Assembly (NCBI GenBank): GCA_026391675.1
Contig: JAPLDQ010000030.1
Location: forward strand, 1-64,000
From: Bacteroidota bacterium
GTDB taxonomy: Bacteria > Bacteroidota > Bacteroidia > Bacteroidales > JACABE01
DNA length: 64,000 nt
Direction: 5' to 3'
Of the stretch, positions 9,084 to 23,516 are shown in pieces (position 1 is the stretch's first letter; every line of letters starts with the position of its first letter). The notes under the pieces are model-generated. The model had not been told where the DNA came from. It ran no database searches and worked only from the letters and a program-made list of their open reading frames with translations. The position numbers and the translations under genes are program-made.

Positions 9084-10356
9084 AATTTTAAATACATTTT
9101 CAATAAAATTTCTTTCAGCTATTTGCAATTTACTTATAGCGGTTCTGGTTTCCCGTTATTTAGGAAAATTTGGTAAAGGAGAGCAAAGTATTGTTCTTAC
9201 AACTATTTCTTTAATTCTCATTTTTGTAAATATTGCAGGTGGTGCAACCCTCGTCTTTCTAACGCCCCGCTATAATTTGAGAAAATTAATCACACTTTCT
9301 TATATCTGGAGCCTGTTTGTAGCTTTGATTTTTTATTTTATTTTATCATTTACAAAAATTGTAAACCCTGAATTTATCGGACATATATGCTTGCTTTCAT
9401 TAATTATCTCATTTGCAGCAATTAATGCAAATATTTTATTGGGAAAGGAAAAAGTTAATACTTCTAATTTTGTAAATCTGGTGCAGCCTGTTATAACTCT
9501 ATTAGCATTGTTTTTCTTTTTTATAATTGTTGCGAAAATAGATGTTATGGCATATATAAATGCTTTGTATATGGCTTATTTATTTAGCTTTATATTAAGT
9601 ATAGTATTGCTTAAGAATGCTAAAAATAAACAATTGATAAAAAATGATAGTTGGAAAGATACATTATTTGCAATGTTTAGTCTTGGGTTTTATAATCAGA
9701 TTTCTCATATTATATCATTACTTAATGCACGGTTGAGCTATTATTTACTTGATAAATATTATGGTGCAGGCCAATTGGGTATTTATTCAAATGGAGTTTC
9801 CCTCACTGAAGCTGTTTGGATGGTTAGTGGAAGTATGGCTATGGTTCAGTATGCGCATATTGTTAACGCTACTGATAATAAGACTTCACAGCAATTAACT
9901 GCTAAATTAACCAAAATTAGTTTGTTGATAAGTCTTCTGATTATGATTTTTATGGTTTTACTACCATCGGAATTTTATAGCTTTGTTTTTGGAAAAGAGT
10001 TTGTAAATATAAATATAATTATGTTATTTTTGGCTCCTGGTGTGATATTGTGGAATTTTTTACTTCTGATAGGCCATTATTTTTCAGGAACCGGTAAGTT
10101 TTATATTGGGGTTAAAGCATCATCTGTAGGATTAATAGTAACATTATTATTAAGTTTTTGGTTAATACCTCGATTTGGTTTTTACGGAGCAGCTGTTGTT
10201 ACAAGTATTTCGTATATATTTACTTCAATGGTAGTGGTATATTATTTTAAAAAAGAAAGTGGTTTGGGCTTATATGATTTAATCCCAAATGTAAAAGATA
10301 TTAAATTGTATGTACTGAGTTTAAAGAACACTTTAATTGTTAAAAATAGTAAATAG
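9073..10356 (+). CDS. Polysaccharide flippase (Wzx/MATE-like)
   Basis: This integral membrane protein of 427 residues with about 12 hydrophobic segments starts FSIKFLSAICNLLIAVLVSRYLGKFGKGEQSIV, the usual opening of the oligosaccharide flippase (MOP exporter) superfamily. It probably moves lipid-linked sugar units across the inner membrane. The start is GTG at 9073, inside the end of the glycosyltransferase gene, which fits coupled translation. The substrate is unknown. With the neighbouring glycosyltransferase and methyltransferase it forms a small polysaccharide set rather than a complete locus. Confidence 0.87.
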   Translation: MINKILNTFSIKFLSAICNLLIAVLVSRYLGKFGKGEQSIVLTTISLILIFVNIAGGATLVFLTPRYNLRKLITLSYIWSLFVALIFYFILSFTKIVNPEFIGHICLLSLIISFAAINANILLGKEKVNTSNFVNLVQPVITLLALFFFFIIVAKIDVMAYINALYMAYLFSFILSIVLLKNAKNKQLIKNDSWKDTLFAMFSLGFYNQISHIISLLNARLSYYLLDKYYGAGQLGIYSNGVSLTEAVWMVSGSMAMVQYAHIVNATDNKTSQQLTAKLTKISLLISLLIMIFMVLLPSEFYSFVFGKEFVNINIIMLFLAPGVILWNFLLLIGHYFSGTGKFYIGVKASSVGLIVTLLLSFWLIPRFGFYGAAVVTSISYIFTSMVVVYYFKKESGLGLYDLIPNVKDIKLYVLSLKNTLIVKNSK

Positions 10357-10449
10357 ATGATAATAAAGCTGTTGAACTTAAAAATTCAGAAATCATATTT
10401 TCCATTAACTAATTTAAGAAATATTATCAGTAAAATAATCAATCAATAA
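10357..10449 (+). CDS. Possible 30-residue small protein filling the flippase-methyltransferase gap
   Basis: An ATG immediately follows the flippase TAG, and the frame runs 30 codons to a TAA two bases before the next start codon. The peptide is basic and hydrophobic (MIIKLLNLKIQKSYFPLTNL at its start). It fills the gap between two genes exactly, but it has no recognised family and may be chance or the remnant of a gene. Confidence 0.2.
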   Translation: MIIKLLNLKIQKSYFPLTNLRNIISKIINQ

Positions 10450-10451
10450 TC

Positions 10452-11267
10452 ATGAATAAATTTTCAAAAGCCATAAAAGCCTTGGGTTTGATAATCCGGT
10501 ATCCTTATTTGCTAAATCATATTATTGATAATGAAAGTGTTTGGGCGAAATATGTAAGTAAAAAATATAATTTACCAAATGGCTTACCATTGGTAGCTAT
10601 TACTGATTTGTTTCCGGATTTTAACGAAACAGTAAATCCATATGCGTATTTGGATGGTGCTACTTTACCTATTGATATTGCACTTTTGAAAGCAATTGCC
10701 TCTAAATATAAGGTTAATAATTATTTTGAGATCGGAACATGGCGTGGTGAGAGTGTGGCCAATGTCGCTGACATAGTATCCGATTGTTTTAGCCTTAATT
10801 TACCTGATAATGAAATCTATGAATTAGGTAAGAGTGATGATTATGTTAAAATGCATCGAGTTTTTTCAACCGGACTAAAAAATGTTAAGCATTTGGAAGG
10901 GAATTCCCTTTATTTTGATTTTACTGCGTATCTGCATCAATTTGATATGGTCTTTATTGATGGAGACCATCATTACGAAAGCCTGGTAAAGGATACTAAA
11001 ACTGCTTTTAAGTTGATAAAAGATGAAAGTAAAATAATAGTTTGGCATGATTATGCATTGGAACCTGAAACTGTGCGATGGAGTGTAATGGCCGGTATTT
11101 TAGATGCATGCCCCCCTGAAAAAAGGGGAAATTTATATCATATTTCCAATACCCTGTGTGCCGTTTATATCAACGAAAAAATAACATCTGAATGGCTTAA
11201 GATAGACACTAAACCTAAGCATTATTTTGAAATTATGATAAAATCGCAAAATTTTAAGTCTTCTTAA
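10452..11267 (+). CDS. Class I SAM-dependent methyltransferase
   Basis: The 271-residue protein has a Rossmann methyltransferase core: motif I FEIGTWRGESVANVADI for S-adenosylmethionine binding and a later acidic loop MVFIDGDHHYESLVKDTKTAF, as in Methyltransf_24-type enzymes found in cell-surface glycan loci. The first 90 or so residues form an extra N-terminal region. It lies 95 bases after the flippase on the same strand and ends at a bidirectional hairpin. The methyl acceptor is unknown; a polysaccharide sugar is a reasonable guess from context. Confidence 0.75.
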   Translation: MNKFSKAIKALGLIIRYPYLLNHIIDNESVWAKYVSKKYNLPNGLPLVAITDLFPDFNETVNPYAYLDGATLPIDIALLKAIASKYKVNNYFEIGTWRGESVANVADIVSDCFSLNLPDNEIYELGKSDDYVKMHRVFSTGLKNVKHLEGNSLYFDFTAYLHQFDMVFIDGDHHYESLVKDTKTAFKLIKDESKIIVWHDYALEPETVRWSVMAGILDACPPEKRGNLYHISNTLCAVYINEKITSEWLKIDTKPKHYFEIMIKSQNFKSS

Positions 11268-11305
11268 ATGATAAATTGAATGGTTTGTCTAATTCAATTT
11301 ATCAT
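11268..11305. terminator. Bidirectional terminator between convergent genes
   Basis: A 14-bp perfect stem (ATGATAAATTGAAT at 11268-11281 with its complement at 11292-11305) has a 10-base loop. It begins one base after the methyltransferase stop; its right arm encodes the last codons of cvpA on the other strand. It should serve both converging transcripts. Confidence 0.7.
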
Positions 11306-11774
11306 TATCTTTCTTAAATTCTGAGTATAAGGCAGGTGCAATTTTTTCAATGGGCTCTATTAATTTTGATTCAGCTCTGTTTTTGTCAGAAATTATCATT
11401 TTCTTACTGTCAAATTTATTGATAAAATGAAGCAGGACACTAATAAGCAAGGTAATCTTTGCAATCCCAAAAATTATTCCCCCGATTTTATTGAATAAGC
11501 CCAGAGCTGTGAGCGAAAATAACTTGTCAATAAACTTTGCCAATAATTTAATAACGATAAAAACAGAAATTAATGTAATAATGAATGCCAGTATATTTTC
11601 GTATTTACCGCTTAAGCCGATTTTATTTCCAATAAAGACTGAAAAATGAATGGATAAATAAATTCCCAGAAAAAGTGCAATGATAGTTGCCAGTTCTATG
11701 ATTAATCCATTTACAAAACCTCTGTAGGCAAACCAGATTACAGGAATAATAAAAATTATATCGATAATGTTCAT
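11289..11774 (-). CDS. CvpA family membrane protein
   Basis: The 161-residue protein has four predicted membrane helices and the CvpA start pattern IIDIIFIIPVIWFAYRGFVNGLIIELATIIALFLGIY. CvpA proteins are inner membrane proteins linked to colicin V export and envelope homeostasis in other bacteria; the mechanism is unclear. The start codon abuts the stop of the upstream mlaF-like gene with no gap, so the three genes mlaE-mlaF-cvpA are very likely one operon. The stop codon lies inside the shared terminator stem. Confidence 0.82.
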   Translation of the reverse strand: MNIIDIIFIIPVIWFAYRGFVNGLIIELATIIALFLGIYLSIHFSVFIGNKIGLSGKYENILAFIITLISVFIVIKLLAKFIDKLFSLTALGLFNKIGGIIFGIAKITLLISVLLHFINKFDSKKMIISDKNRAESKLIEPIEKIAPALYSEFKKDNDKLN

Positions 11775-12524
11775 TTATTTACCTTTTATTCTTCTGGTTA
11801 GTTCTGTTGCATAGACGAAATCATTAATTTCTTTATTGTCAGTATTTAATATTGAATTTTTATCACCTTCCCACCATAAATTTCCTTTGTAAATAAAGGC
11901 TATTTTATCACCGATTTCAATTACAGAATTCATATCGTGGGTATTGATAACGGTAGTAATCTGATATTCCTGAGTAATTTCGCTGATCAGGTTGTCAATA
12001 ACAATTGAAGTAGCAGGATCTAAGCCAGAATTAGGTTCATCACAAAATAAATATTTGGGATTGGCTGAAATGGCACGGGCAATGGCAACACGTTTTTTCA
12101 TGCCACCGCTTAATTCTGATGGAAAAAGTTTGTTTACGTTCTCCAGATTTACCCTTTTTAAACAAAAGTTAGCCCTGTCAATTTTTTCATTTATTGACAT
12201 ATCTGTAAACATTGACAAAGGAAAAATAACATTTTCTTCAACATTCATGGAGTCAAACAACGCTCCGCCCTGGAAAAGCATGCCAATTTCCTGACGGATT
12301 TTCTTTTTTTCTTCGTAAGAAATAGTAGAAAAAGAACGTCCGTCAAAATTAATAGTACCGCTATCAATAGGAAATAACCCAACAAGACATTTCATCAGAA
12401 CAGTTTTTCCGGAACCACTCTGACCGATAATTAGATTGGTTTTTCCTTTATCAAAACGAACATTGATGTTTTTCAACACCTCATGTTCACCAAATGTTTT
12501 CGATACATTAATTACATCTATCAT
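11775..12524 (-). CDS. ABC transporter ATPase, MlaF-like (lipid transport)
   Basis: This 249-residue ATPase has Walker A GQSGSGKT (about residues 34-41), the signature LSGGMKKRVAIARA and Walker B YLFCDEPNSGLDP. The MKKR after the signature is typical of MlaF/Ttg2A ATPases that power phospholipid movement between membranes with an MlaE permease and an MCE-domain protein. The upstream gene is the MlaE permease, overlapping by four bases. No MCE protein gene is in the window, so the periplasmic partner must be elsewhere. Confidence 0.88.
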   Translation of the reverse strand: MIDVINVSKTFGEHEVLKNINVRFDKGKTNLIIGQSGSGKTVLMKCLVGLFPIDSGTINFDGRSFSTISYEEKKKIRQEIGMLFQGGALFDSMNVEENVIFPLSMFTDMSINEKIDRANFCLKRVNLENVNKLFPSELSGGMKKRVAIARAISANPKYLFCDEPNSGLDPATSIVIDNLISEITQEYQITTVINTHDMNSVIEIGDKIAFIYKGNLWWEGDKNSILNTDNKEINDFVYATELTRRIKGK

Positions 12525-13261
12525 GCCAATAGTAATTGAGTGAGTATCAAATTGAACAAAATTATCATAATACTACTGTTAACTACAGCCTTTGTACTTG
12601 ATCGTCCTACTTCCAGTGCACCTCCTGAAGTAAAATATCCATAATGTCCCGAAACTGAAGCCGTAAGAAATGCAAAAACTACAGTTTTTATAAGAGCATA
12701 GGTGATATCGAACATTTTAAACTGATATTGTAAGCCATAAACATAATCACTTGATGCAACCAAACCGGTTAATACGCCTGATAACCAGCCACCGGCTAAT
12801 GCCAGAAACATACTTATCAGAATAATAAACGGATACATTAACACGCAAGCTACTATCTTTGGTAAAATCAGGAAAGAAGCTGTATTTATACCCATGATTT
12901 CCAGTGCATCTATTTGTTCCGTTACGCGCATTGTACCAATTTCAGATGCAATACGGCTACCAACCTTGCCAGCCAGAATCAGACTGACAATAGTAGGTGA
13001 AAATTCAAGTATGACGGATTTACGGGTTGCAAATCCTATGGTATAAAGTGGTATTAGCGGGCTGTCAACATTAAAAGCCATTTGTATGGTTACAACGGCA
13101 CCCATAAATACAGAAATGATAGCTACTATCCCTAATGAATCAAGTCCCAGGTTATCCATTTCAAGCAATAACTGCTTTTTATAAATGGAAGCCTTTTCAG
13201 GTTTATGAAAGACTTCTTTCATCAAAATTAAATATTTTCCAACTTCAGATAAAATCTTCAT
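12521..13261 (-). CDS. MlaE-type ABC transporter permease
   Basis: The 246-residue membrane protein matches the MlaE/YrbE family: SLGIVAIISVFMGAVVTIQMAF, a central GKVGSRIASEIGTMRVTEQIDALEIMGIN block that contacts the ATPase, and five to six membrane segments. It likely forms the inner membrane core of a lipid transporter with the ATPase encoded next. The four-base overlap (ATGA type) supports coupled translation. No clear TAnnTTTG box precedes it; a near match with the wrong spacing is present. Confidence 0.88.
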   Translation of the reverse strand: MKILSEVGKYLILMKEVFHKPEKASIYKKQLLLEMDNLGLDSLGIVAIISVFMGAVVTIQMAFNVDSPLIPLYTIGFATRKSVILEFSPTIVSLILAGKVGSRIASEIGTMRVTEQIDALEIMGINTASFLILPKIVACVLMYPFIILISMFLALAGGWLSGVLTGLVASSDYVYGLQYQFKMFDITYALIKTVVFAFLTASVSGHYGYFTSGGALEVGRSSTKAVVNSSIMIILFNLILTQLLLA

Positions 13262-13353
13262 GCTTTGATTAATATTTCGGCTAAATTAAGCAAATTTCTA
13301 TTTTAAAAAGCTATATTATGATGAAAAAATTGAAGCTGATTCCTATATTTTAT

Positions 13354-13361
13354 TAATTTTG
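13354..13361 (+). promoter_or_regulatory. -7 promoter box for the small lipoprotein and SprT-like genes
   Basis: TAATTTTG matches TAnnTTTG and lies 24 bases upstream of the ATG at 13386. A longer reading starting at 13359 would begin inside this box and is rejected. Confidence 0.6.
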
Positions 13362-13385
13362 CAATCTGCTGCAATCGATATTGTA

Positions 13386-13550
13386 ATGAAAAACATTGCT
13401 TTGATAAAAATTAGCTGTATATGTCTTTTTACTGTATTTTTCTTATGTTCCTGTGCCAGTCATAAATATAAACCACACAGGAAGAAAAAGAATTGTATGG
13501 AATGTCCTACTTTTAGTTTAAACTTTACAACAAAAAATGACAGAGCTTAA
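13386..13550 (+). CDS. Small predicted lipoprotein (54 residues)
   Basis: From the ATG at 13386 the product has a Lys-containing start, a hydrophobic stretch and a lipobox-like end (FLCSC, probable lipid site Cys23). The mature peptide is only about 31 residues, basic, with a NCMECP cluster near its end. No function is known to me. It overlaps the first 14 bases of the SprT-like gene, so the two are likely cotranscribed. It is one of several tiny Cys-rich lipoproteins typical of Bacteroidota genomes. Confidence 0.6.
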   Translation: MKNIALIKISCICLFTVFFLCSCASHKYKPHRKKKNCMECPTFSLNFTTKNDRA

Positions 13551-14142
13551 AACGGTCCTTGCAGCGCATATTCCTGAAAAGGCCTTACATCTGGTTGAAA
13601 TGTTATTTATTACCAATGATGTTCAGCTTAAAGTCAGCCGCAACCGTAAAACAAAATTAGGCGATTACCGTCCACCTCAAAGGAATTTTACTTATCACAG
13701 AATTTCAGTTAATTATAATCTGAATCAGTATGAATTCTTGGTTACATTAATTCATGAATTTGCCCATTTATTTGTCTGGAATAAACACAGGAATAGAGTT
13801 GACCCACATGGAACTGAATTTAAAACAACATATTACAGTTTATTGAATCAGTTTATAGATCAAAATGTTTTTCCTGATGATATTAAAACGGCGCTACTGA
13901 AAATTGAAGTAAAACCTGAAACTGCCAAGCTGGAGCTGGGCAGGATTTTAAAAAGTTACAACTCAACAGTTCATGATACGCAGTTTATTGAACAAATTCC
14001 AATGCATACACTTTTTAAAACTGCAGATGGCAGGACTTTTCAGAAAATTGAAAAACTCAGAAAACGATACAAATGTTTATGTTTAAATGATAAAAGGAAA
14101 TATCTTTTTCATCCCTTAGTTAATGTTGTATCAGTAGATTGA
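13537..14142 (+). CDS. SprT-like zinc metalloprotease domain protein
   Basis: The 201-residue protein carries the zinc protease motif HEFAH (His73, Glu74, His77) in LVTLIHEFAHLFVWNKH, followed by HGTEFKTTYY, which fits the SprT fold. The C-terminal part (RYKCLCLNDKRKYLF) resembles the region where SprT proteins hold a zinc ribbon, but only one CxC pair is visible, so that part looks reduced. SprT-like proteins in eukaryotes (SPRTN) act on DNA-protein crosslinks; the bacterial role is not established. The start overlaps the small lipoprotein gene. Confidence 0.8.
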   Translation: MTELKTVLAAHIPEKALHLVEMLFITNDVQLKVSRNRKTKLGDYRPPQRNFTYHRISVNYNLNQYEFLVTLIHEFAHLFVWNKHRNRVDPHGTEFKTTYYSLLNQFIDQNVFPDDIKTALLKIEVKPETAKLELGRILKSYNSTVHDTQFIEQIPMHTLFKTADGRTFQKIEKLRKRYKCLCLNDKRKYLFHPLVNVVSVD

Positions 14143-14159
14143 TTATCAAATATATTTCT

Positions 14160-14167
14160 TACTTTTG
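14160..14167 (+). promoter_or_regulatory. -7 promoter box for manC
   Basis: TACTTTTG is a full TAnnTTTG match. A TTG triplet about 18 bases further upstream fits the -33 element. It ends 15 bases before the ATG at 14183, and an alternative TTG start at 14165 falls inside it. Confidence 0.65.
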
Positions 14168-14182
14168 CAAAAATTTTTTAAA

Positions 14183-15271
14183 ATGGAAAATAATTTCTGT
14201 GTAATCATGGCCGGTGGTATAGGCGCTCGTTTTTGGCCGATGAGCAGAACAAATCAACCCAAACAATTTATTGATATTTTAGGCACAGGTGAAACCTTGA
14301 TTCAGCAAACATTTAAGCGTTTTGAAAGGGTATGCCCGAAAGAAAATATATTTATAGTTACCAATGAAATTTATCGTGATTTAGTAAAAACTCAGCTTCC
14401 AACTATAAAGGACGAGCAAATTATTTGTGAGCCGGCCCGTAGAAATACGGCACCATGCATAGCTTATGCAAATTACAGAATATTACAGATTAATCCTGAT
14501 GCCAATATCGTGGTAGCTCCATCTGATCATATAATCCTGAAAGAGGATACTTTTATTGAAGTAATCAATGCAGCGTTAAAAGCGACAAAAGAAAATGATT
14601 GGCTGTTAACACTGGGTATTAAACCAAGCCGTCCTGATACTGGTTATGGTTATATTCAGTTTAATGATCAGGTAACGTTAACTACTGATGTCCGCATAAA
14701 AAAAGTAAAAACTTTTACCGAAAAACCTGTCCTGGAAATGGCAGAATCATTTTTGCAAAGTGGTGATTTTTTATGGAATGCAGGTATTTTTGTGTGGTCA
14801 TTAAAAAGCATAATGCAAGCATTTGAAAATTTCTTACCGGAAATTGATTTGATTTTTAAAGATGGGATTAAATATTACAATACCCGTAATGAAGAAAATT
14901 TTATAAAAAATGCCTATACTATTTGCAAAAACATTTCTATTGATTATGGTGTAATGGAAAAAGCAGATAATGTGTATGTATTGTCATCTGAATTTGGCTG
15001 GTCTGATCTTGGAACATGGGGTTCGCTTTATGAAACAAGAGAAAAAGACGATAATGCAAATACTATTGTTGGTAAAAATGTTATGACTTATGATACCAAA
15101 AATTGTATTATTAATATGCCGAAAGAGAAGTTGGTTGTTTTACAGGGGCTGGATGATTATATTGTAGCAGAAGATGATAATATTTTGCTGGTCTGTAAAA
15201 AGTCAGAAGAACAGCAGATAAGGCAATTTGTAAATGATGTCATGAGCGAAAAAGGTGAAAAATACGTTTAA
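14183..15271 (+). CDS. manC: Mannose-1-phosphate guanylyltransferase
   Basis: This 362-residue enzyme makes GDP-mannose from mannose-1-phosphate and GTP, feeding surface polysaccharides and GDP-fucose. The nucleotidyltransferase signature MAGGIGARFWPMSRTNQPKQF follows the start, and later motifs include EPARRNTAPCIAYA, VAPSDHI and FTEKP, all typical of the ManC type. It lacks the C-terminal isomerase domain of bifunctional forms, so it is the short version. It has its own promoter and a terminator 23 bases after the stop. A distant link to the GT4/flippase locus is possible but not shown. Confidence 0.93.
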   Translation: MENNFCVIMAGGIGARFWPMSRTNQPKQFIDILGTGETLIQQTFKRFERVCPKENIFIVTNEIYRDLVKTQLPTIKDEQIICEPARRNTAPCIAYANYRILQINPDANIVVAPSDHIILKEDTFIEVINAALKATKENDWLLTLGIKPSRPDTGYGYIQFNDQVTLTTDVRIKKVKTFTEKPVLEMAESFLQSGDFLWNAGIFVWSLKSIMQAFENFLPEIDLIFKDGIKYYNTRNEENFIKNAYTICKNISIDYGVMEKADNVYVLSSEFGWSDLGTWGSLYETREKDDNANTIVGKNVMTYDTKNCIINMPKEKLVVLQGLDDYIVAEDDNILLVCKKSEEQQIRQFVNDVMSEKGEKYV

Positions 15272-15293
15272 TTAATTTATTCCCAACATAAAT

Positions 15294-15327
15294 AAAGCCC
15301 GGAAAATTTAAAATTCTCCGGGCTTTT
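15294..15327 (+). terminator. Rho-independent terminator of manC
   Basis: AAAGCCCGGA at 15294-15303 pairs with TCCGGGCTTT at 15317-15326, followed by T. The A run before the stem would also serve transcription from the other side, though the tandem repeat and pgk stop lie between. Confidence 0.85.
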
Positions 15328-15335
15328 ACTTTATC

Positions 15336-15412
15336 AACCTAATAACCTAATAACCTAATAACCTAATAACCTATTAACTTAATAACTTAATAACTTAATA
15401 ACTTAATAACTA
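15336..15412 (-). repeat. 8-bp tandem repeat starting at the pgk stop codon
   Basis: Nine 8-base units run without interruption into the pgk stop codon. On the plus strand they are four AACCTAAT, one AACCTATT and four AACTTAAT. On the pgk sense strand the TAG stop is followed directly by TTATTAAG units. Because 8 is not a multiple of 3, the array places stops in every frame behind the gene. Confidence 0.9.
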
Positions 15413-16603
15413 TTTATCTAAAATAGCTTTTACCCCTGGTAACTCTTTACCTTCCAGATATTCCAGCATTGCACCGCCACCGGTAGAAACATAGCTGATT
15501 TGGTCACCTAAGTTATATTGATTCAGCGCTGCTACGGAATCTCCGCCACCTACAGCAGAAAAAGCACCGCTGATAGTTGCACTTGCCACTGCAATAGCCA
15601 TTGATTTGGTGCCTTGTTTAAATCTGTCCAGTTCGAAAACACCCATAGGACCATTCCATAAAATAGTCTGGGAATTGTTAATGATTTCAGCAAACCTTTT
15701 GCAACTTTTAGGTCCGATATCCAATCCCATCATATTATCTTTAATATGATCAGCAGGTACTACATGAATATGACCGTCATTAGAGAAAGTATCTGATACA
15801 ATGGCATCTGTTGGAAGGTATAAATTAACACCTTTAAGCATCATTTCCTGCACCATTTCACGGGCAACCTGAATTTTATCTTCTTCTATCAATGATTCAC
15901 CGACTTTACCACCCAATGCTTTAATAAATGTAAATGCCATACCGCCTCCAATAATCATATTATCCACTTTAGGAATTAAGTTTTTTATAATGTCAATCTT
16001 GGAAGAAACTTTTGCACCACCTATAATGGCAGTAAATGGTTCTTTTGAATTATTAAGCAGTTTTTCAAGGTTTTCTATTTCATTTTCAAGCAATAAACCA
16101 AAATATTTAGCTTTTGGGAAAAATCTGGCTATAGTTGCTGTTGATGCATGCTCACGGTGAGAAGTACCAAATGCATCATTTATATATGCATCACCTAAAC
16201 TTGCCAGTTTTTTGGCAAATTCAACATCACCGGCAATTTCTTCAGGATAAAAACGAAGGTTTTCCATCAGAATAATTTCACCCGGTTTTAATTTTGCAGC
16301 ATATTCAAATGTTTTAGGGCCGAACAGATCACGGGTAAATATAATATTGCTGTTCAATAATTTTGATAAATGAGGAACGATAGGAGTAAGTGAGTAGTCT
16401 TCCTCAAAACCACCTTTAGGACGGCCAAGGTGAGACATTAAAATTACAGATGCACCATCATTCAATACTTTCTTAATGGTTGGTAATGATTCAACTATAC
16501 GTGTATCATCGGTTATCTGACGGTTATGATTAAGCGGTACATTAAAGTCAACACGGATTAATACCTTTTTCCCTTTAAAATTTACATCTTTTATTTTTGT
16601 CAT
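15410..16603 (-). CDS. pgk: Phosphoglycerate kinase
   Basis: The 397-residue glycolytic enzyme transfers phosphate between 1,3-bisphosphoglycerate and ADP. It shows the substrate-binding N-terminus KKVLIRVDFNVPLNHNRQITDDTRI, SHLGRPKG, the hinge and nucleotide region AIIGGAKVSSKIDII, and the C-terminal GGGDSVAALNQY. Length is normal. A TAnnTTTG box lies 26 bases upstream. Its stop codon TAG is the first element of an 8-bp tandem array. Confidence 0.97.
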   Translation of the reverse strand: MTKIKDVNFKGKKVLIRVDFNVPLNHNRQITDDTRIVESLPTIKKVLNDGASVILMSHLGRPKGGFEEDYSLTPIVPHLSKLLNSNIIFTRDLFGPKTFEYAAKLKPGEIILMENLRFYPEEIAGDVEFAKKLASLGDAYINDAFGTSHREHASTATIARFFPKAKYFGLLLENEIENLEKLLNNSKEPFTAIIGGAKVSSKIDIIKNLIPKVDNMIIGGGMAFTFIKALGGKVGESLIEEDKIQVAREMVQEMMLKGVNLYLPTDAIVSDTFSNDGHIHVVPADHIKDNMMGLDIGPKSCKRFAEIINNSQTILWNGPMGVFELDRFKQGTKSMAIAVASATISGAFSAVGGGDSVAALNQYNLGDQISYVSTGGGAMLEYLEGKELPGVKAILDK

Positions 16604-16628
16604 AGCAGTAGCGTTTTCAATTATGAGT

Positions 16629-16636
16629 CAAAAATA
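16629..16636 (-). promoter_or_regulatory. -7 promoter box for pgk
   Basis: The minus strand reads TATTTTTG, a full TAnnTTTG match, giving a predicted leader of about 20 bases. Confidence 0.6.
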
Positions 16637-16780
16637 ATAAAAAAACTATTATAACAAAAATAATAATAAAAATTACCTAAAAATTTAGCTTTAAAAGGAT
16701 AGTATTATTAAAGTAAAAAGTGATGTCTCATAGGTTATTTTTACTAACTTATCAACCTCTGTGACTCTCTGTGACTTCTC

Positions 16781-16840
16781 ATTAATTCTCTGTGTAATAA
16801 ATATTTAATGATTTGCACAGAGTTACACAGAGAAAATTAA
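16781..16840. repeat. Imperfect inverted repeat with CTCTGTGT arms
   Basis: ATTAATTCTCTGTGTAA (16781-16797) faces TTACACAGAGAAAATTAA (16823-16840), complementary except for a two-base bulge. The left flank also carries repeats of CTCTGTGACT. It lies after the stop of the DUF4139 gene and upstream of pgk, and looks like a dispersed intergenic repeat more than a terminator. Confidence 0.6.
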
Positions 16841-16896
16841 GAGGTTCACAAAGACTTTTTTGACAGCCACTTCCTATAAATCTAAATTTTAAAGCA

Positions 16897-18567
16897 TTAT
16901 TTTAAAATTAAACTTTTATCACTGTCATATTTAATGGAATAGGTAAAACTGACTGTTTTTGTTTCTTTCGGTTTTAATTTTAAATTCCAACTCAATAAAC
17001 CTGTAGTTTCATTCAGTTTTCCGGTAAAGTCATCGGCAATAAAATTCACTTTTATGTCTTTATCATTGGCAATTGGAATCTGATCTTCCAGACTTAAATC
17101 AATACTTGCATTTTTATTGTTTTTAACGGTAATTTCCATGGTAATAGTTTTTAATCTTGAATTTCCAATTATCTGATCTTTTTCTTTGTCCCTGAGCTTT
17201 TTACGTTGTATTGAAATACTCTTGTCCCTGCCTAAAGACAATTCAAGCGTATCAGTAATTGTTGTAGGGTCAATAGTTGTTTCACCTACATAAGAGCCTT
17301 CGAAATAAATATTTGCTTTAGCAGCCAATAGGTTCAATTCTTCCCATCCGCTCAGTTTTGCTATTAAAAAGGCATCCTTGTCAATTTTAGGTGCAGCATA
17401 ATAATTGTAACGGGTAATAATATTTTCATTCTGCTGAACATAAACCAGATGAGGTTTTCCGTCATCAGGTATTGAATAGGGTAAATCGATATTGTATTCA
17501 ATTGCTGTAAGGCTTTGAGATTGTGTTATATATTTATAGGATCTTTCTGCTGCAGGCAGTTTAGCATCATCATAATTGCCCTGAGCACTTTGAGGAGCTT
17601 CTGCTTTTGAACTTTTCATAACAATATTGGATGTATAGCCTGTCACCGGCATAAAGTAATTCAATAACCATGAAGATAAGTAAGGTTTAATATTATTGAC
17701 AGTTGGGTTATTGGTGGATAATTTCAGTTTTACATTTTCCCAGTTTTCACCGGTATTCTGATATACATTTGCCTTTAAAGCCAATTCAAGCGGGGCATTT
17801 ATATCGTTTACACGTATATCATAGGATGCCGACCATCCGGCATTTGAAGTAAGATAGGAAACCGTGAGACTTCCAGTAACAGCTTCCCTGGCTGAAACAC
17901 TTACAATAATCTGATATCTGGGCGAATCGCTGCCAGTTTTTTCAGTGATAATTCTGTTTTTATAATCGTTCAGATCATTTAAACGTTTTTGCAATTGCGT
18001 TTTTTTAGTTAAAATTTTAGCTTCATCCCGTTTAATTTTTTGTAATTCCGTATTAATATTGCTCATTTTTGTATTGTAAAAATCCATGGCAGCCATCAGT
18101 ACAGGGAGAGAATCACTTTTCCCCCCACCGCGCATTAAAGGATTGTTATATAACATATCTTTCTGCTTATTATAAAGATCCTTTTTATCCTTGATTGCAT
18201 CAAAATCAAAATTAATTTCATTCAGTGTATCCTGAGTGGCATTGATTTTATGTTGCAAACTGGCCGGTATTAAAGACTCGGGATTTTCAGCCGGTTCAGA
18301 ATATTTAATGTTATGGCGGGTATCGAGGATAATAAAATTTCCTTTGCCTGATGATTGAATGCTTGAAACATTTGCATAAGGCGAAATCCCATCAAATACC
18401 AGTTCACTTACACCTGCCGGGATATTAATATTTGCACTTCTCTGGATTTGTGCGCCTGAAGTAAATACACAGACTTCTTTTACAGAAGATTTAAGTGTTT
18501 TTTGATTTTGTGCTATTACTGACAAATTCAATGTAAGCAAAAGCAAAACAATGCTGAATTTTTTCAT
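16897..18567 (-). CDS. DUF4139 (mucoidy inhibitor MuiA-like) secreted protein
   Basis: The 556-residue protein has a signal peptide (KKFSIVLLLLTLNLSVIAQ), an N-terminal DUF4140-type domain (VKEVCVFTSGAQIQRSANI), a central coiled coil around residues 110-215, and a C-terminal DUF4139 beta-rich domain ending in SFTYSIKYDSDKSL. This matches the MuiA-like family, whose role is unknown beyond the name given to a Bacillus/Thermus-type domain pair. It is likely periplasmic or outer-membrane associated. No TAnnTTTG box was found directly upstream. Confidence 0.85.
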   Translation of the reverse strand: MKKFSIVLLLLTLNLSVIAQNQKTLKSSVKEVCVFTSGAQIQRSANINIPAGVSELVFDGISPYANVSSIQSSGKGNFIILDTRHNIKYSEPAENPESLIPASLQHKINATQDTLNEINFDFDAIKDKKDLYNKQKDMLYNNPLMRGGGKSDSLPVLMAAMDFYNTKMSNINTELQKIKRDEAKILTKKTQLQKRLNDLNDYKNRIITEKTGSDSPRYQIIVSVSAREAVTGSLTVSYLTSNAGWSASYDIRVNDINAPLELALKANVYQNTGENWENVKLKLSTNNPTVNNIKPYLSSWLLNYFMPVTGYTSNIVMKSSKAEAPQSAQGNYDDAKLPAAERSYKYITQSQSLTAIEYNIDLPYSIPDDGKPHLVYVQQNENIITRYNYYAAPKIDKDAFLIAKLSGWEELNLLAAKANIYFEGSYVGETTIDPTTITDTLELSLGRDKSISIQRKKLRDKEKDQIIGNSRLKTITMEITVKNNKNASIDLSLEDQIPIANDKDIKVNFIADDFTGKLNETTGLLSWNLKLKPKETKTVSFTYSIKYDSDKSLILK

Positions 18568-19296: not shown

Positions 19297-19545
19297 ATGA
19301 AAATAAATAAAAATATTGCAATCAGTGATACCGGATTTGTTTTTAATCCGATCAATGGCGAATCATACTCAGTAAATCCAATTGGTGTGGAAATCGTTAA
19401 TTTTTTAAAAGAAGACAGACCTTTTGAAGAAATTTTAAAAACAATGCTGAATAAATATAGTGTTGACGAAGCTACATTTGAAAAAGATTACGCTGATTTT
19501 GTCAATATCCTGAAACATCATAATTTAATCGAAACGAATGAATAA
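19297..19545 (+). CDS. PqqD-like (RiPP recognition element) protein
   Basis: The 82-residue protein matches the PqqD fold family from end to end: a short beta start, the core YSVNPIGVEIVNFLKEDRPF (residues 24-43), then helices EEILKTMLNKYSVDEATFEKDYADFVNIL and a final HNLIE. PqqD domains bind leader peptides of ribosomally made peptides and present them to the modifying enzyme. It overlaps the ATP-grasp gene by eight bases and is the first gene of a three-gene operon closed by a terminator. No precursor peptide gene is visible nearby, so the ligand is unknown. The nearest candidate is the N-terminus of the decarboxylase two genes on. Confidence 0.82.
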   Translation: MKINKNIAISDTGFVFNPINGESYSVNPIGVEIVNFLKEDRPFEEILKTMLNKYSVDEATFEKDYADFVNILKHHNLIETNE

Positions 19546-20584
19546 ACGTAAAGTATGCATTGCTGTCAGTGGATTGAATGCTATTGACAGCCCTGGTCCC
19601 GGCGTGGCAGTTATCAGAGGTTTACGTGAGGCAAAGAGTCTGGATGTTAAGATAATAGGTTTATCTTATGAATCACTCGAACCGGGAATATATATGCACG
19701 ATATTATAGATAAAACCTATCATATTCCCTATCCGACAGCCGGTACTGATGCCTTGCTTGCACGTCTGGATTATATTAACAGTATTGAGAAAATTGATGT
19801 TATTATTCCAAACTTCGATGCTGAACTCTATTCTTTTATGAAGCTGGAAGATGCACTGAAAGCCATGAATATTCACATGTTTTTACCCTCTATTGAGCAG
19901 TTTGAAGAACGTCATAAAGTTAATTTGCCTGAATTTGGGAAAAAATACGATATAAAAGTCCCGTTTAGTAAATCAATTTTCAGTACCCACGAAATTTATA
20001 GTCTGACCGACGATTTTGAATTTCCCATGGTAATAAAAGGGAAATATTATGATGCCAGTATTGCGTATAATAGTGAACAGGCAAAAAGCTATTTTAATAA
20101 AATCAGCGCCAAATGGGGACTGCCTATTGTTGTTCAGCAATTTATACATGGAACTGAATATAACATAACAGGTCTTGGTGATGGCAAGGGAAATACGATA
20201 GCAGCTGTGCCTATGCGTAAGCAATATATTACGGATAAAGGCAAAGCCTGGGGTGGTATATCTATAGAAGATAAAAAAATGATAGCCCTGACTCATAAAT
20301 TTGTAAGCCAAACCAAGTGGCGTGGTGGATTTGAGTTAGAACTGATGAAAGGACAGGATAATGAATTCTATTTACTGGAAATCAATCCCCGTATTCCTGC
20401 ATGGATTTATCTTGCAGTAGGTGTTGGCCAGAATATCCCGGAAGCACTCGTAAAACTTGCTCTTGGTGAGGAAGTTGAAGTAATGACAGAATATGCTGTG
20501 GGTAAAATGTTTATCCGGTATGCCTGGGATATGATAGTGAGCATTGAAGAATTTCAGCAAATCTCAACAGTAGGTGAATTATAA
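19538..20584 (+). CDS. ATP-grasp ligase
   Basis: The 348-residue protein belongs to the ATP-grasp superfamily, which uses ATP to activate a carboxylate as acyl phosphate for attack by an amine or other nucleophile. Visible elements are an N-terminal Rossmann-like pre-domain (VIIPNFDAELYSF near residue 90), a lysine in PMVIKGKYYDASIAY (Lys167), a glutamate in FIHGTEYNI, and the metal-binding FYLLEINPRIPAW (Glu281, Asn283). It most resembles the carbamoyl-phosphate-synthase-like ATP-grasp proteins. The substrate cannot be read. The eight-base overlap with the PqqD-like gene implies they are made together. Confidence 0.82.
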   Translation: MNKRKVCIAVSGLNAIDSPGPGVAVIRGLREAKSLDVKIIGLSYESLEPGIYMHDIIDKTYHIPYPTAGTDALLARLDYINSIEKIDVIIPNFDAELYSFMKLEDALKAMNIHMFLPSIEQFEERHKVNLPEFGKKYDIKVPFSKSIFSTHEIYSLTDDFEFPMVIKGKYYDASIAYNSEQAKSYFNKISAKWGLPIVVQQFIHGTEYNITGLGDGKGNTIAAVPMRKQYITDKGKAWGGISIEDKKMIALTHKFVSQTKWRGGFELELMKGQDNEFYLLEINPRIPAWIYLAVGVGQNIPEALVKLALGEEVEVMTEYAVGKMFIRYAWDMIVSIEEFQQISTVGEL

Positions 20585-20611
20585 TATTAAAAATAAAATT
20601 AAAGATAAGAA

Positions 20612-21970
20612 ATGGAAAAATTAAGATATGAAAGACCGGTAATTAAAAAACTTGAAGCCGGTATGCCCAATAAATTTGGTCTCAGAACAGAATATATCCC
20701 CATGACACACATTGATGGTGTGGCTGTAAAAGATCTGGTAAAAGAATACGGATCTCCTTTATATGTGATATCAGAAGAAACTATACGTTCAACAATTAAA
20801 AAAGCAAAAAAAGCATTTACAACCAGGTATCCTAAGGTTCAGTTTGCATGGAGCTATAAAACCAACTATATTGATGCGGTTTGTAATGTATTTCATCAGG
20901 AAGGCAGCTGGGCTGAGGTTGTTTCTGGCTTTGAATATGATAAAGCTATGCGTAATGGTGTAGATGGTAAAAAAATTATTTTCAACGGACCCGATAAGAG
21001 TGAAGCTGATTTGCGTAAAGCTATTGAAAATGAATCTTTAATACACATCGACCATTTGGATGAGTTGTATACCATACTGGAACTTACTGATATAATTAAT
21101 AAACGTCCAAAAGTAGCTATCCGTATAAATATGGATACAGGTATTTATCCAATCTGGGACCGTTTTGGTTTTAATTATGAGAACGGACAAGCCTGGGATG
21201 CGTTAAATAAAATAATGCGTTCAGGTAAACTTGATCTGGTTGGTTTGCATTGTCACATCGGTACTTTTATGTTAGCTGCCAGTGCTTATGCCATTGCTGC
21301 AGGTAAATTGGCCGATCTGGCTATTGGTATTGAACAGAAATACAATCATTCCATCAAATACATTGATTTAGGCGGTGGATTTGCTTCTAAAAACACACTG
21401 AAAGGATCTTATTTACCGGGTTCAGATACCAATCCTACATTTGATGATTTTGCTGAAGCCATAACCACTACTTTGCTGAACAGTAATTTTAAGAATAACG
21501 AATTACCAACCCTTATTCTGGAAACGGGCCGGGCTTTAATTGATGATGCAGGATATCTGATTGGAAGTGTAATTGCAAACAAACGTACTTCAACAGGTAA
21601 ACGTACGACCATTATTGATATTGGTGTGAATTTGCTCTTTACCGCTTTCTGGTACGAACATAAAATAACACCGGCACAGCCTTTTACACATTATACAGAA
21701 ACTACCCAGGTATTCGGACCTTTATGTATGAATATTGATGTTGTTCGTGAAAATATTGATTTACCTTTGCTTAATAAAGGTGATCATCTGGTAATTTCAA
21801 CTATAGGTGCATATAATATGACACAATGGATGCAGTTTATTACACTCCGGCCAAATGTTGTGATGATTGATACCAATGAAAAGGTACATCTCATCCGTGA
21901 AGCTGAAAAATTAGACAGTATCACCAGTCATGAAAAAATGCCTGAACATTTGAAAAAATTTGAATTATAG
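20612..21970 (+). CDS. PLP-dependent decarboxylase, diaminopimelate/ornithine decarboxylase-like (fold type III)
   Basis: The 452-residue protein has the full residue set of fold type III decarboxylases: PLP lysine Lys83 in FAWSYKTNY, GLHCHIG (His213/His215), the phosphate-binding DLGGGF (252-257), ETGRAL (304-309, usual EPGR), the catalytic Cys372 in GPLCMNID, and Tyr401 in GAYNM. It should decarboxylate an amino acid-like substrate. About 30 extra residues precede the normal family start; they contain YERPVIKKL, which looks like the YxxPxL motif of lasso-peptide leaders read by PqqD-type domains. It lies 27 bases after the ATP-grasp gene and before a strong terminator. Ordinary LysA activity for lysine synthesis is an alternative. 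Confidence 0.85.
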   Translation: MEKLRYERPVIKKLEAGMPNKFGLRTEYIPMTHIDGVAVKDLVKEYGSPLYVISEETIRSTIKKAKKAFTTRYPKVQFAWSYKTNYIDAVCNVFHQEGSWAEVVSGFEYDKAMRNGVDGKKIIFNGPDKSEADLRKAIENESLIHIDHLDELYTILELTDIINKRPKVAIRINMDTGIYPIWDRFGFNYENGQAWDALNKIMRSGKLDLVGLHCHIGTFMLAASAYAIAAGKLADLAIGIEQKYNHSIKYIDLGGGFASKNTLKGSYLPGSDTNPTFDDFAEAITTTLLNSNFKNNELPTLILETGRALIDDAGYLIGSVIANKRTSTGKRTTIIDIGVNLLFTAFWYEHKITPAQPFTHYTETTQVFGPLCMNIDVVRENIDLPLLNKGDHLVISTIGAYNMTQWMQFITLRPNVVMIDTNEKVHLIREAEKLDSITSHEKMPEHLKKFEL

Positions 21971-22034: not shown

Positions 22035-22070
22035 AAAGCCGGCAGGATTTATTTTCTGCCGGCTTTTTTT
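22035..22070 (+). terminator. Strong rho-independent terminator of the PqqD-like operon
   Basis: AAAGCCGGCAG at 22035-22045 pairs perfectly with CTGCCGGCTTT at 22056-22066 and is followed by T to 22070. It closes the operon 64 bases after the decarboxylase stop and lies just outside the left end of the insertion sequence. Confidence 0.9.
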
Positions 22071-22084
22071 GGTTAGGCATTAGG

Positions 22085-23516
22085 TGATAAGTTTCATAAG
22101 TTCGTTTACAAATTTGTTTCACAAGTTCGTTTACATTTAATTATCAAAACTGTGTCACAAGTTCGTTTACAAAACTAGAAAAGTTCTTTGAAATAATGCG
22201 TTTAATTGTCTATAAATAATTTATTATGGACAATGAAGAAATTCTTAGACAAGAAGCTGTTCGTCTTTTTACAAAAGGCATTTCAGCTAAAAAGATTAGC
22301 GAACAATTAAGTCGTACCCGGCAATGGGTTTATAAATGGGTGGATAAATTTCAAAAATCCCAAAATAAAGAATGGAGTAAAACACGTTCTAATGCTCCTC
22401 GAACAATTTTAAACAAAACGTCTATTTCATTAGAAAATACTGTTATTGAAATACGTAAACGATTGTCGAAAAATCCTTATGCACAAAAAGGAGCAATAAG
22501 TATTCTTTATGAGTTTGAACGATTAGGTATAACGCCACCTTCACTTTCAACCATTAATAGGATACTTAAACGCCAACATTTGATTGATGAAAGTTATGTG
22601 AAACAAATCAAAGAAAAGGAATATCCTGATTATTACTTTGGTGTTCAGCAAATGGATCTTATAGGTCCAAAATATTTAAAAGGAGGTTTTAAATTTTACT
22701 TCTATTGTATTATTGATACCGAGTCACATTATGCATGGATTTACCCAATTACAAATAAATCAGCTGAATGCATAACACCTTGTTTAATTGATTTTTGGAC
22801 AAATTATCGTTTACCTGATTTTCTACAGATGGATAATGAATTATCATTTAGGGGAAGCAATAGGTATCCTCGTGGATTAGGACTAATTTTAAGAATCGCT
22901 ATTTCAAACGGAGTAGCTCCTATCTTCATACCACCAGCAGAACCATGGCGAAATGGGATTGTAGAAAAGTTTAATGGAAACGTTTTAAAATACTTTTACA
23001 ACACTCAAACTTTCTATACATTTGAAGAATTGAAAGAGAAATCAAAACAATTTTGTGTTTTTCACAATGAAAATCACAGATATTCAAGTCAATCAAACAG
23101 AACTCCAAATCAAATGGTTAAGCAAAGTTTAAATGATATTAAATTGAAAAAAGATATTGATTTAAGTCCTAAAATTATCATTGAAGAAGGAAAGTTAATT
23201 TTCATCCGATTCGTTAGGAGTGACCAGAAATTGTCTATCTTAAATACCACTTTCATACTAAAAAAAGAATTAATATACAGTTATGTTGTAGCACAAATCA
23301 TTATAGAAAAACATATATTGATTGTTCTGCAAAATAATACTGTGCATCACATTTACCCATTTATTATGCCTCTGTCTTAAAAATTTCTTAACGCAATATG
23401 TCAATGAACTACTGATATTTTAATCGCCTTAGAAGCGAAATCCCTAGGGATTTGTAAACGAACTTATGAAACGAATTAGGTTCTTTAGAATGTAAACGAA
23501 CTTATGATATGTAACA
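22085..23516 (+). mobile_element. Insertion sequence, IS481/IS21-like, with reiterated ends
   Basis: A single transposase gene is bounded by inverted repeats. A 19-base motif (TTCATAAGTTCGTTTACA type) occurs three times in direct orientation on the left (22092-22110, 22117-22135, 22153-22171) and twice inverted on the right (23453-23471, 23491-23509). The outermost copies can be extended to TG...CA ends at 22085 and 23516, giving about 1432 bp. No target-site duplication is obvious. Repeated end motifs and TG/CA ends recall IS21, but there is no istB-like ATPase gene. The exact ends are inferred. Confidence 0.78.
22226..23380 (+). CDS. DDE transposase (retroviral integrase core)
   Basis: The 384-residue protein starts with a helix-turn-helix (residues about 5-40: RQEAVRLFTKGISAKKISEQ then SRTRQWVYKWVDKF), a second DNA-binding region to about residue 125, and an rve integrase core. 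The catalytic triad appears to be Asp144 (QQMDLIGP), Asp203 (LQMDNEL) and Glu247 (RNGIVEKFN). The frame is intact, so the element may be active. It resembles IS481-type single-gene transposases; the IstA of IS21 is the alternative, but istB is absent. Confidence 0.88.
   Translation: MDNEEILRQEAVRLFTKGISAKKISEQLSRTRQWVYKWVDKFQKSQNKEWSKTRSNAPRTILNKTSISLENTVIEIRKRLSKNPYAQKGAISILYEFERLGITPPSLSTINRILKRQHLIDESYVKQIKEKEYPDYYFGVQQMDLIGPKYLKGGFKFYFYCIIDTESHYAWIYPITNKSAECITPCLIDFWTNYRLPDFLQMDNELSFRGSNRYPRGLGLILRIAISNGVAPIFIPPAEPWRNGIVEKFNGNVLKYFYNTQTFYTFEELKEKSKQFCVFHNENHRYSSQSNRTPNQMVKQSLNDIKLKKDIDLSPKIIIEEGKLIFIRFVRSDQKLSILNTTFILKKELIYSYVVAQIIIEKHILIVLQNNTVHHIYPFIMPLS

Follow-up and report, generated by a model that had tools for sequence, protein, structure and literature searches.

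An RRE domain is taken as the mark of a gene cluster for a peptide natural product. Such domains normally serve small precursor peptides, and discrete RREs are able to act in trans. What, then, does such a domain recognise in an operon that holds two enzyme genes and no precursor gene? This question is raised by three adjacent genes in the window, by which we mean the whole stretch of 64,000 nucleotides of a Bacteroidota contig analysed here. The preliminary description of this stretch reported a PqqD-fold protein, an ATP-grasp enzyme and a PLP-dependent decarboxylase followed by a strong terminator, and our examination of the open reading frames against Pfam and NCBIfam models bears out the trio, its boundaries and the terminator. 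The features discussed below are as follows.

19297–19545, + strand: PqqD-fold protein, a discrete YxxP-type RRE, 82 aa (PF05402, E = 5e-11)
19538–20584, + strand: ATP-grasp ligase, 348 aa (PF15632/PF02655)
20612–21970, + strand: PLP fold type III (alanine-racemase fold) decarboxylase, 452 aa, with a GPLCMNID motif
20612–20680, + strand: leader-like N-terminal tag of the decarboxylase, residues 1–23, MEKLRYERPVIKKLEAGMPNKFG
22035–22066, + strand: intrinsic terminator, 13-bp stem and T tail
22226–23380, + strand: IS481-type transposase, a neighbour outside the system (NF033577, 4e-35, under its cut-off)

The first two reading frames overlap by 8 bases, a gap of 27 bases precedes the decarboxylase, and the terminator lies 65 bases beyond the decarboxylase stop codon. 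The trio is a widespread, uncharacterised Bacteroidota gene set whose products, judged from their sequences, are a protein for binding peptides, one for forming amide bonds and a decarboxylase; our literature searches, which covered subscription journals thinly, found no paper on it. As set out below, the missing precursor is likely answered by a leader built into the front end of the decarboxylase.

Conservation of the gene trio

Across an even, phylum-wide sample of 395 Bacteroidota genomes, strong matches to the ATP-grasp enzyme occur in 34 (about 9%) and strong matches to the decarboxylase in the identical 34, the decarboxylase scores dropping from 565 to 185 bits at the next-best matches. 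The system is present in 73 of 395 sampled genomes of the class and in 150 of 393 sampled genomes of the window's order (38%). The same arrangement recurs in smaller samples: 20 strong PqqD matches in 198 genomes sit directly upstream of an ATP-grasp gene, and a close decarboxylase, found in 28 of 59 genomes drawn mostly from the window's order, almost always comes immediately after PqqD and ATP-grasp. Gene order is identical in the best 80 named GTDB loci, which come nearly all from Bacteroidota metagenome-assembled genomes, with a few Ignavibacteriota and oddly titled bins. The search for co-occurrence of the three proteins suggested in the preliminary description has, in these genome samples of Bacteroidota, returned strong conservation, and the refuting outcome named there, of relatives that do not keep the three genes together, is not what is seen: they remain adjacent. 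One genome (G030) splits the set between contigs, with PqqD and ATP-grasp on one and the decarboxylase, its tag kept, on another. No relatives of the ATP-grasp enzyme were found on plasmids.

Several irregular loci were also encountered. The system occurs twice with identical scores at both ends of one contig (G182:C1, 2577–5192 and 3733993–3736608), most likely because the assembled ends of a circular chromosome overlap. Genome G004 encodes PqqD twice: the additional copy (L032, 8545–8790) lies some 5 kb upstream of the trio and has neither an ATP-grasp nor a tagged protein of its own in the vicinity. In G051 (L045, 2011–4803) the ATP-grasp gene is apparently broken, with extra open reading frames between its remnants and the tagged decarboxylase.

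A lasso-type RRE and a leader-like tag

The PqqD-fold protein scores 43.1 bits against PF05402 (gathering score 23.4) and 14.4 against the PQQ-biosynthesis PqqD model TIGR03859, below the cut-off of 46. Searched against the PDB, its profile best matches TbiB1 (4e-13), then TfuB1 and PbaB1, all of which were solved with YxxP or WxxP leaders (PMC13381572). With these proteins (TbiB1, TfuB1/FusB1 and PbaB1) and LppB it shares the PqqD fold, hydrophobic residues at the pocket positions (129 homologues) and an Asn and Asp suited to a Tyr-Pro leader. Ungapped alignments to 9x90 and 9x8z, whose chains both carry 18 extra residues and whose offsets agree, equate Asn27 (codon 19375–19377) with LppB N33 and PbaB1 G42, and Asp64 (codon 19486–19488) with LppB D70 and PbaB1 Q79. 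Asn27 is invariant (246/246), and Asp64 is found in 190 of 246 homologues and in 189 of the 200 pairs with a Tyr tag. These are positions of demonstrated importance: LppB Asp70 bonds the leader Tyr in the LppA complex, binding is weaker in D70A and almost lost in N33A, and PbaB1 gains binding of a Tyr leader through G42N/Q79D (PMC13381572).

The candidate ligand is found at the N-terminus of the decarboxylase, as the pattern KxxYERPxIKKLxxGMPNKFG. Its YERPxI portion fits the motif [Y/W]xxPx[L/V/I/F/A] that discrete lasso RREs bind in leaders (PMC13381572), and the family's ligand motif may be written YxxPx[I/L/V]. Across 246 non-redundant homologues, Tyr or Phe at position 6 (Tyr6, codon 20627–20629), Pro9, Ile, Leu or Val at position 11 and Lys21 (codon 20672–20674) are each present in 245 of 245, Glu7 in 238 and Gly23 in 242, so that the tag is among the best-conserved parts of the decarboxylase, its pattern persisting at 47% overall identity. 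Conservation extends to the GMPNKFG half, beyond the RRE-binding half. AlphaFold2 assigns residues 1–24 a pLDDT below 50 and the core mostly 85–97. Matches to relatives outside the decarboxylase family start near residues 27–35, and LysA-like paralogues, whose matches start near residue 33, lack the tag.

The preliminary description saw no precursor. It was right that there is no separate short leader-like gene: its proposed look for conserved small genes beside homologous loci yields none, whether as a cluster of small ORFs across 24 loci or in the gaps and upstream stretches of 80, and the tag-like motif was not found in other open reading frames. We accordingly reject a separate precursor peptide. 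What it overlooked is that the N-terminus of the decarboxylase is itself leader-like, so a recognition sequence is present, fused to an enzyme. In the window's genome a single PqqD protein exceeds the cut-off and the tag occurs once, both of them in the trio operon. In lasso peptide systems, by contrast, the leader is carried by a small precursor rather than by a 450-residue PLP enzyme, and a B2 protease and an asparagine-synthetase-like cyclase accompany the RRE; the trio operon has neither, its conserved neighbours being the ATP-grasp enzyme, the decarboxylase, a urea-transporter/M23-peptidase protein and TPR proteins. The separate short precursor gene of an RRE-dependent RiPP cluster is likewise not conserved here.

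Covariation between the RRE and the tag

For each of 246 loci (Neff 164) the three proteins were paired, and mutual information with average-product correction was used to rank 128,772 column pairs between proteins. The highest score went to ATP-grasp 286 with tag 19, the second to RRE 64 with tag 6 and the third to RRE 53 with tag 4. The tag is involved in eight of the top ten pairs, against a share of roughly 5% for tag pairs among all pairs in a first run on 129 loci, in which the leading two pairs were the same. The second pair is the equivalent of the proven Asp–Tyr contact in the LppB–LppA complex. Where tag 6 is Tyr, RRE 64 is Asp in 189 loci, Asn in 9 and His in 2; where it is Phe, RRE 64 is Tyr (27), Ser (13), Ala (4) or His (1) and never Asp or Asn, as expected from the loss of the Tyr hydroxyl. 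RRE 53 of the third pair is the counterpart of PbaB1 D68, an anchor for the residues preceding the motif (PMC13381572), and ATP-grasp 286 of the first belongs to the ExNPR-x-PAW motif.

Phylogeny limits how far such covariation can be read. On a tree built without the tested columns, Tyr/Phe at tag 6 changed nine times. The supported independent pairs number six, of which about 4.8 point in the same direction and none in the opposite; the sign test gives about 0.06 and, with so few pairs, is unable to reach 0.05. The score of ATP-grasp 286 with tag 19 rests on 2–4 changes, and this link is treated as a hint and not as proof. AlphaFold2 left the tag undocked, with pLDDT below 50, in a natural read-through chain of PqqD, ATP-grasp and decarboxylase residues 1–60 (from locus L039, stop codons read as Gly), run as a single chain with four RRE rows, a setup too thin to predict a complex fairly, though its outcome lends no support. 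Taken together, the motif, the pocket residues and their covariation with the tag argue strongly that the RRE binds the decarboxylase tag.

Chemistry suggested by the two enzymes

The ATP-grasp enzyme carries an invariant ExNPR-x-PAW motif (residues 281–289), and its closest fold matches are 2pn1 (Z 28.9), the L-amino acid ligase 3vot (Z 26.7) and PylC (4ffr, Z 26.3). With PylC and the L-amino acid ligases it has in common the fold of an amide-bond-forming ligase, although identity is about 12–14%.

For the decarboxylase, the best match both by sequence and by predicted structure is 7kh2 (Z 42.7 over 399 residues, 2.2 Å), the FigC/FslC N-citrylornithine decarboxylase of rhizoferrin biosynthesis (PMC7857480). 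The substrate-site motif of the family, CM[N/Q]xD (CMNxD in the window), is that of FigC, an enzyme that likewise acts after a ligase. FigC/FslC, however, lack the N-terminal tag and are partnered by an NIS synthetase where the trio has an ATP-grasp enzyme, and the decarboxylase scores 244 bits against the FslC model NF041039, half its cut-off of 500. The branch of FigC in the tree is very long, and its exact placement beside the decarboxylase family is unsure. FigC belongs to a group with SbnH, AcsE, MccE and BtrK that decarboxylate amino acids joined to citrate, to a peptide-nucleotide or to a carrier protein (PMC7857480). The decarboxylase's position near FigC is no more than suggestive of activity on conjugated amino acids; since the group acts on such substrates, ligation followed by decarboxylation would be the natural reading. 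The proposal in the preliminary description that the trio ligates and decarboxylates a joined amino acid fits these nearest relatives, FigC/FslC, BtrK and MccE (PMC7857480).

Docking and its alternatives

The account that we favour, and consider probable as a whole, is that the RRE docks the ATP-grasp enzyme onto the leader-like tail of the decarboxylase for ligate-then-decarboxylate chemistry. The lasso-type RRE would bind the tail with Tyr6, Pro9 and Ile11 occupying two hydrophobic pockets, Tyr6 hydrogen-bonding Asp64 and Asn27 holding the kink at Pro9. The ATP-grasp enzyme, brought by the RRE to the decarboxylase, would conjugate an amino acid through an amide or similar bond, and the decarboxylase would then remove the alpha-carboxyl from the conjugated amino acid, in what we infer to be the order of events. 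The second half of the tail, GMPNKFG with Lys21, may act at the ATP-grasp enzyme, as a positioning element or as an acceptor. The product might, at a guess, be handled by the urea-transporter/M23 and TPR/barrel proteins that most relatives encode next in the same operon. Docking alone is sufficient for the data.

It is possible that the chemistry is carried out on the tail, which would make the tail a carrier, and this is the strongest competitor to docking, if a rather unlikely one. The tag would then comprise leader and core: the RRE would present Lys21 to the ATP-grasp enzyme, the side-chain carboxyl of an amino acid would be linked to the lysine amine, and the decarboxylase would act on its own or its partner's charged tail. 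Such an arrangement would resemble BtrI/BtrJ/BtrK of the butirosin system, in which BtrJ is the ATP-grasp ligase, except that carrier and enzyme would be one protein. BtrK, an alanine-racemase-fold decarboxylase as here, acts on glutamate held by the carrier protein BtrI (PMC7857480). The invariance of Lys21 within a tail predicted to be disordered, the conserved GMPNKFG half and the leading covariation of tag 19 with a residue adjoining the catalytic ExNPR motif all fit this reading. Yet that covariation comes from few evolutionary changes, Lys21 is possibly a contact residue, and an enzyme to free the product into the cytoplasm is not evident. The trio also differs from the butirosin system in having an RRE and a tag in place of an acyl carrier protein, and no conserved small carrier gene was found in the operon.

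Two further readings have very little probability. The RRE might serve a small peptide encoded elsewhere in the genome, the tag being unrelated, as the usual clients of RREs and their action in trans would allow; the single occurrence of the tag motif in the genome, on the decarboxylase, the lack of a conserved small ORF near the operon and the covariation at a proven RRE–leader contact make this scarcely credible. Nor is it at all likely that the decarboxylase is simply a paralogue of LysA at work in lysine or polyamine metabolism, its neighbours being incidental: the two share a fold (Z 42.0 to M. jannaschii LysA over 406 residues, 2.1 Å, tied with 7kh2) and the lysA model TIGR01048 gives 227 bits, but this lies below the cut-off of 297.9, a separate LysA in the genome reaches 390 bits, the tree splits the families with support of 100/100, all readable LysA rows carry CE[ST]xD at the substrate site, and the decarboxylase strictly co-occurs with the ATP-grasp enzyme. 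Score, separate LysA, tree and motif rule out LysA identity itself, and the tight grouping with LysA that the preliminary description had allowed for is seen neither in the scores nor in the tree.

If the favoured docking account is right, an RRE here apparently recognises a leader built into a metabolic enzyme, without a precursor peptide. The roles of RREs would widen to enzyme–enzyme docking or carrier chemistry, some orphan RREs that genome mining has left unplaced would be explained, and the trio would point to an unknown small molecule, made by these bacteria at the frequencies given above for the phylum and for the window's order. Were the tail instead a carrier, RiPP recognition machinery would have been repurposed as carrier-protein metabolism, with leader plus core fused to an enzyme.

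The wider operon and neighbouring genes

The relatives' operon is longer than the preliminary description recognised, by two or three conserved genes. In most relatives the trio heads a six-gene operon with a fusion of urea transporter and M23 peptidase (about 730 residues), a TPR protein (about 206 residues) and usually a TPR/beta-barrel protein (about 450 residues). In more divergent members the barrel gene varies, while the transporter/peptidase is retained and so, for the most part, is the small TPR protein. By eye, the M23 domain seems to have intact catalytic His/Asp motifs. The window's genome carries these three genes away from the trio, on contig C27 (L059, 4737–8933), and directly behind the trio's terminator is the IS481-type transposase.

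At locus L064 an open reading frame of 305 residues (10375–11292), resembling eIF2B-type proteins by eye, sits between the decarboxylase and the urea transporter, and similar frames occur in about six loci. In a sister species (genome G003, L031, about 9800–18001) the trio is followed by short-stretch repeats on the opposite strand, whose translations contain LFIRCQRYNLKANHN, and the region also holds frames resembling, by eye, Cas2, Cas1 and a large Cas9-like protein; it is probably a CRISPR-Cas locus.
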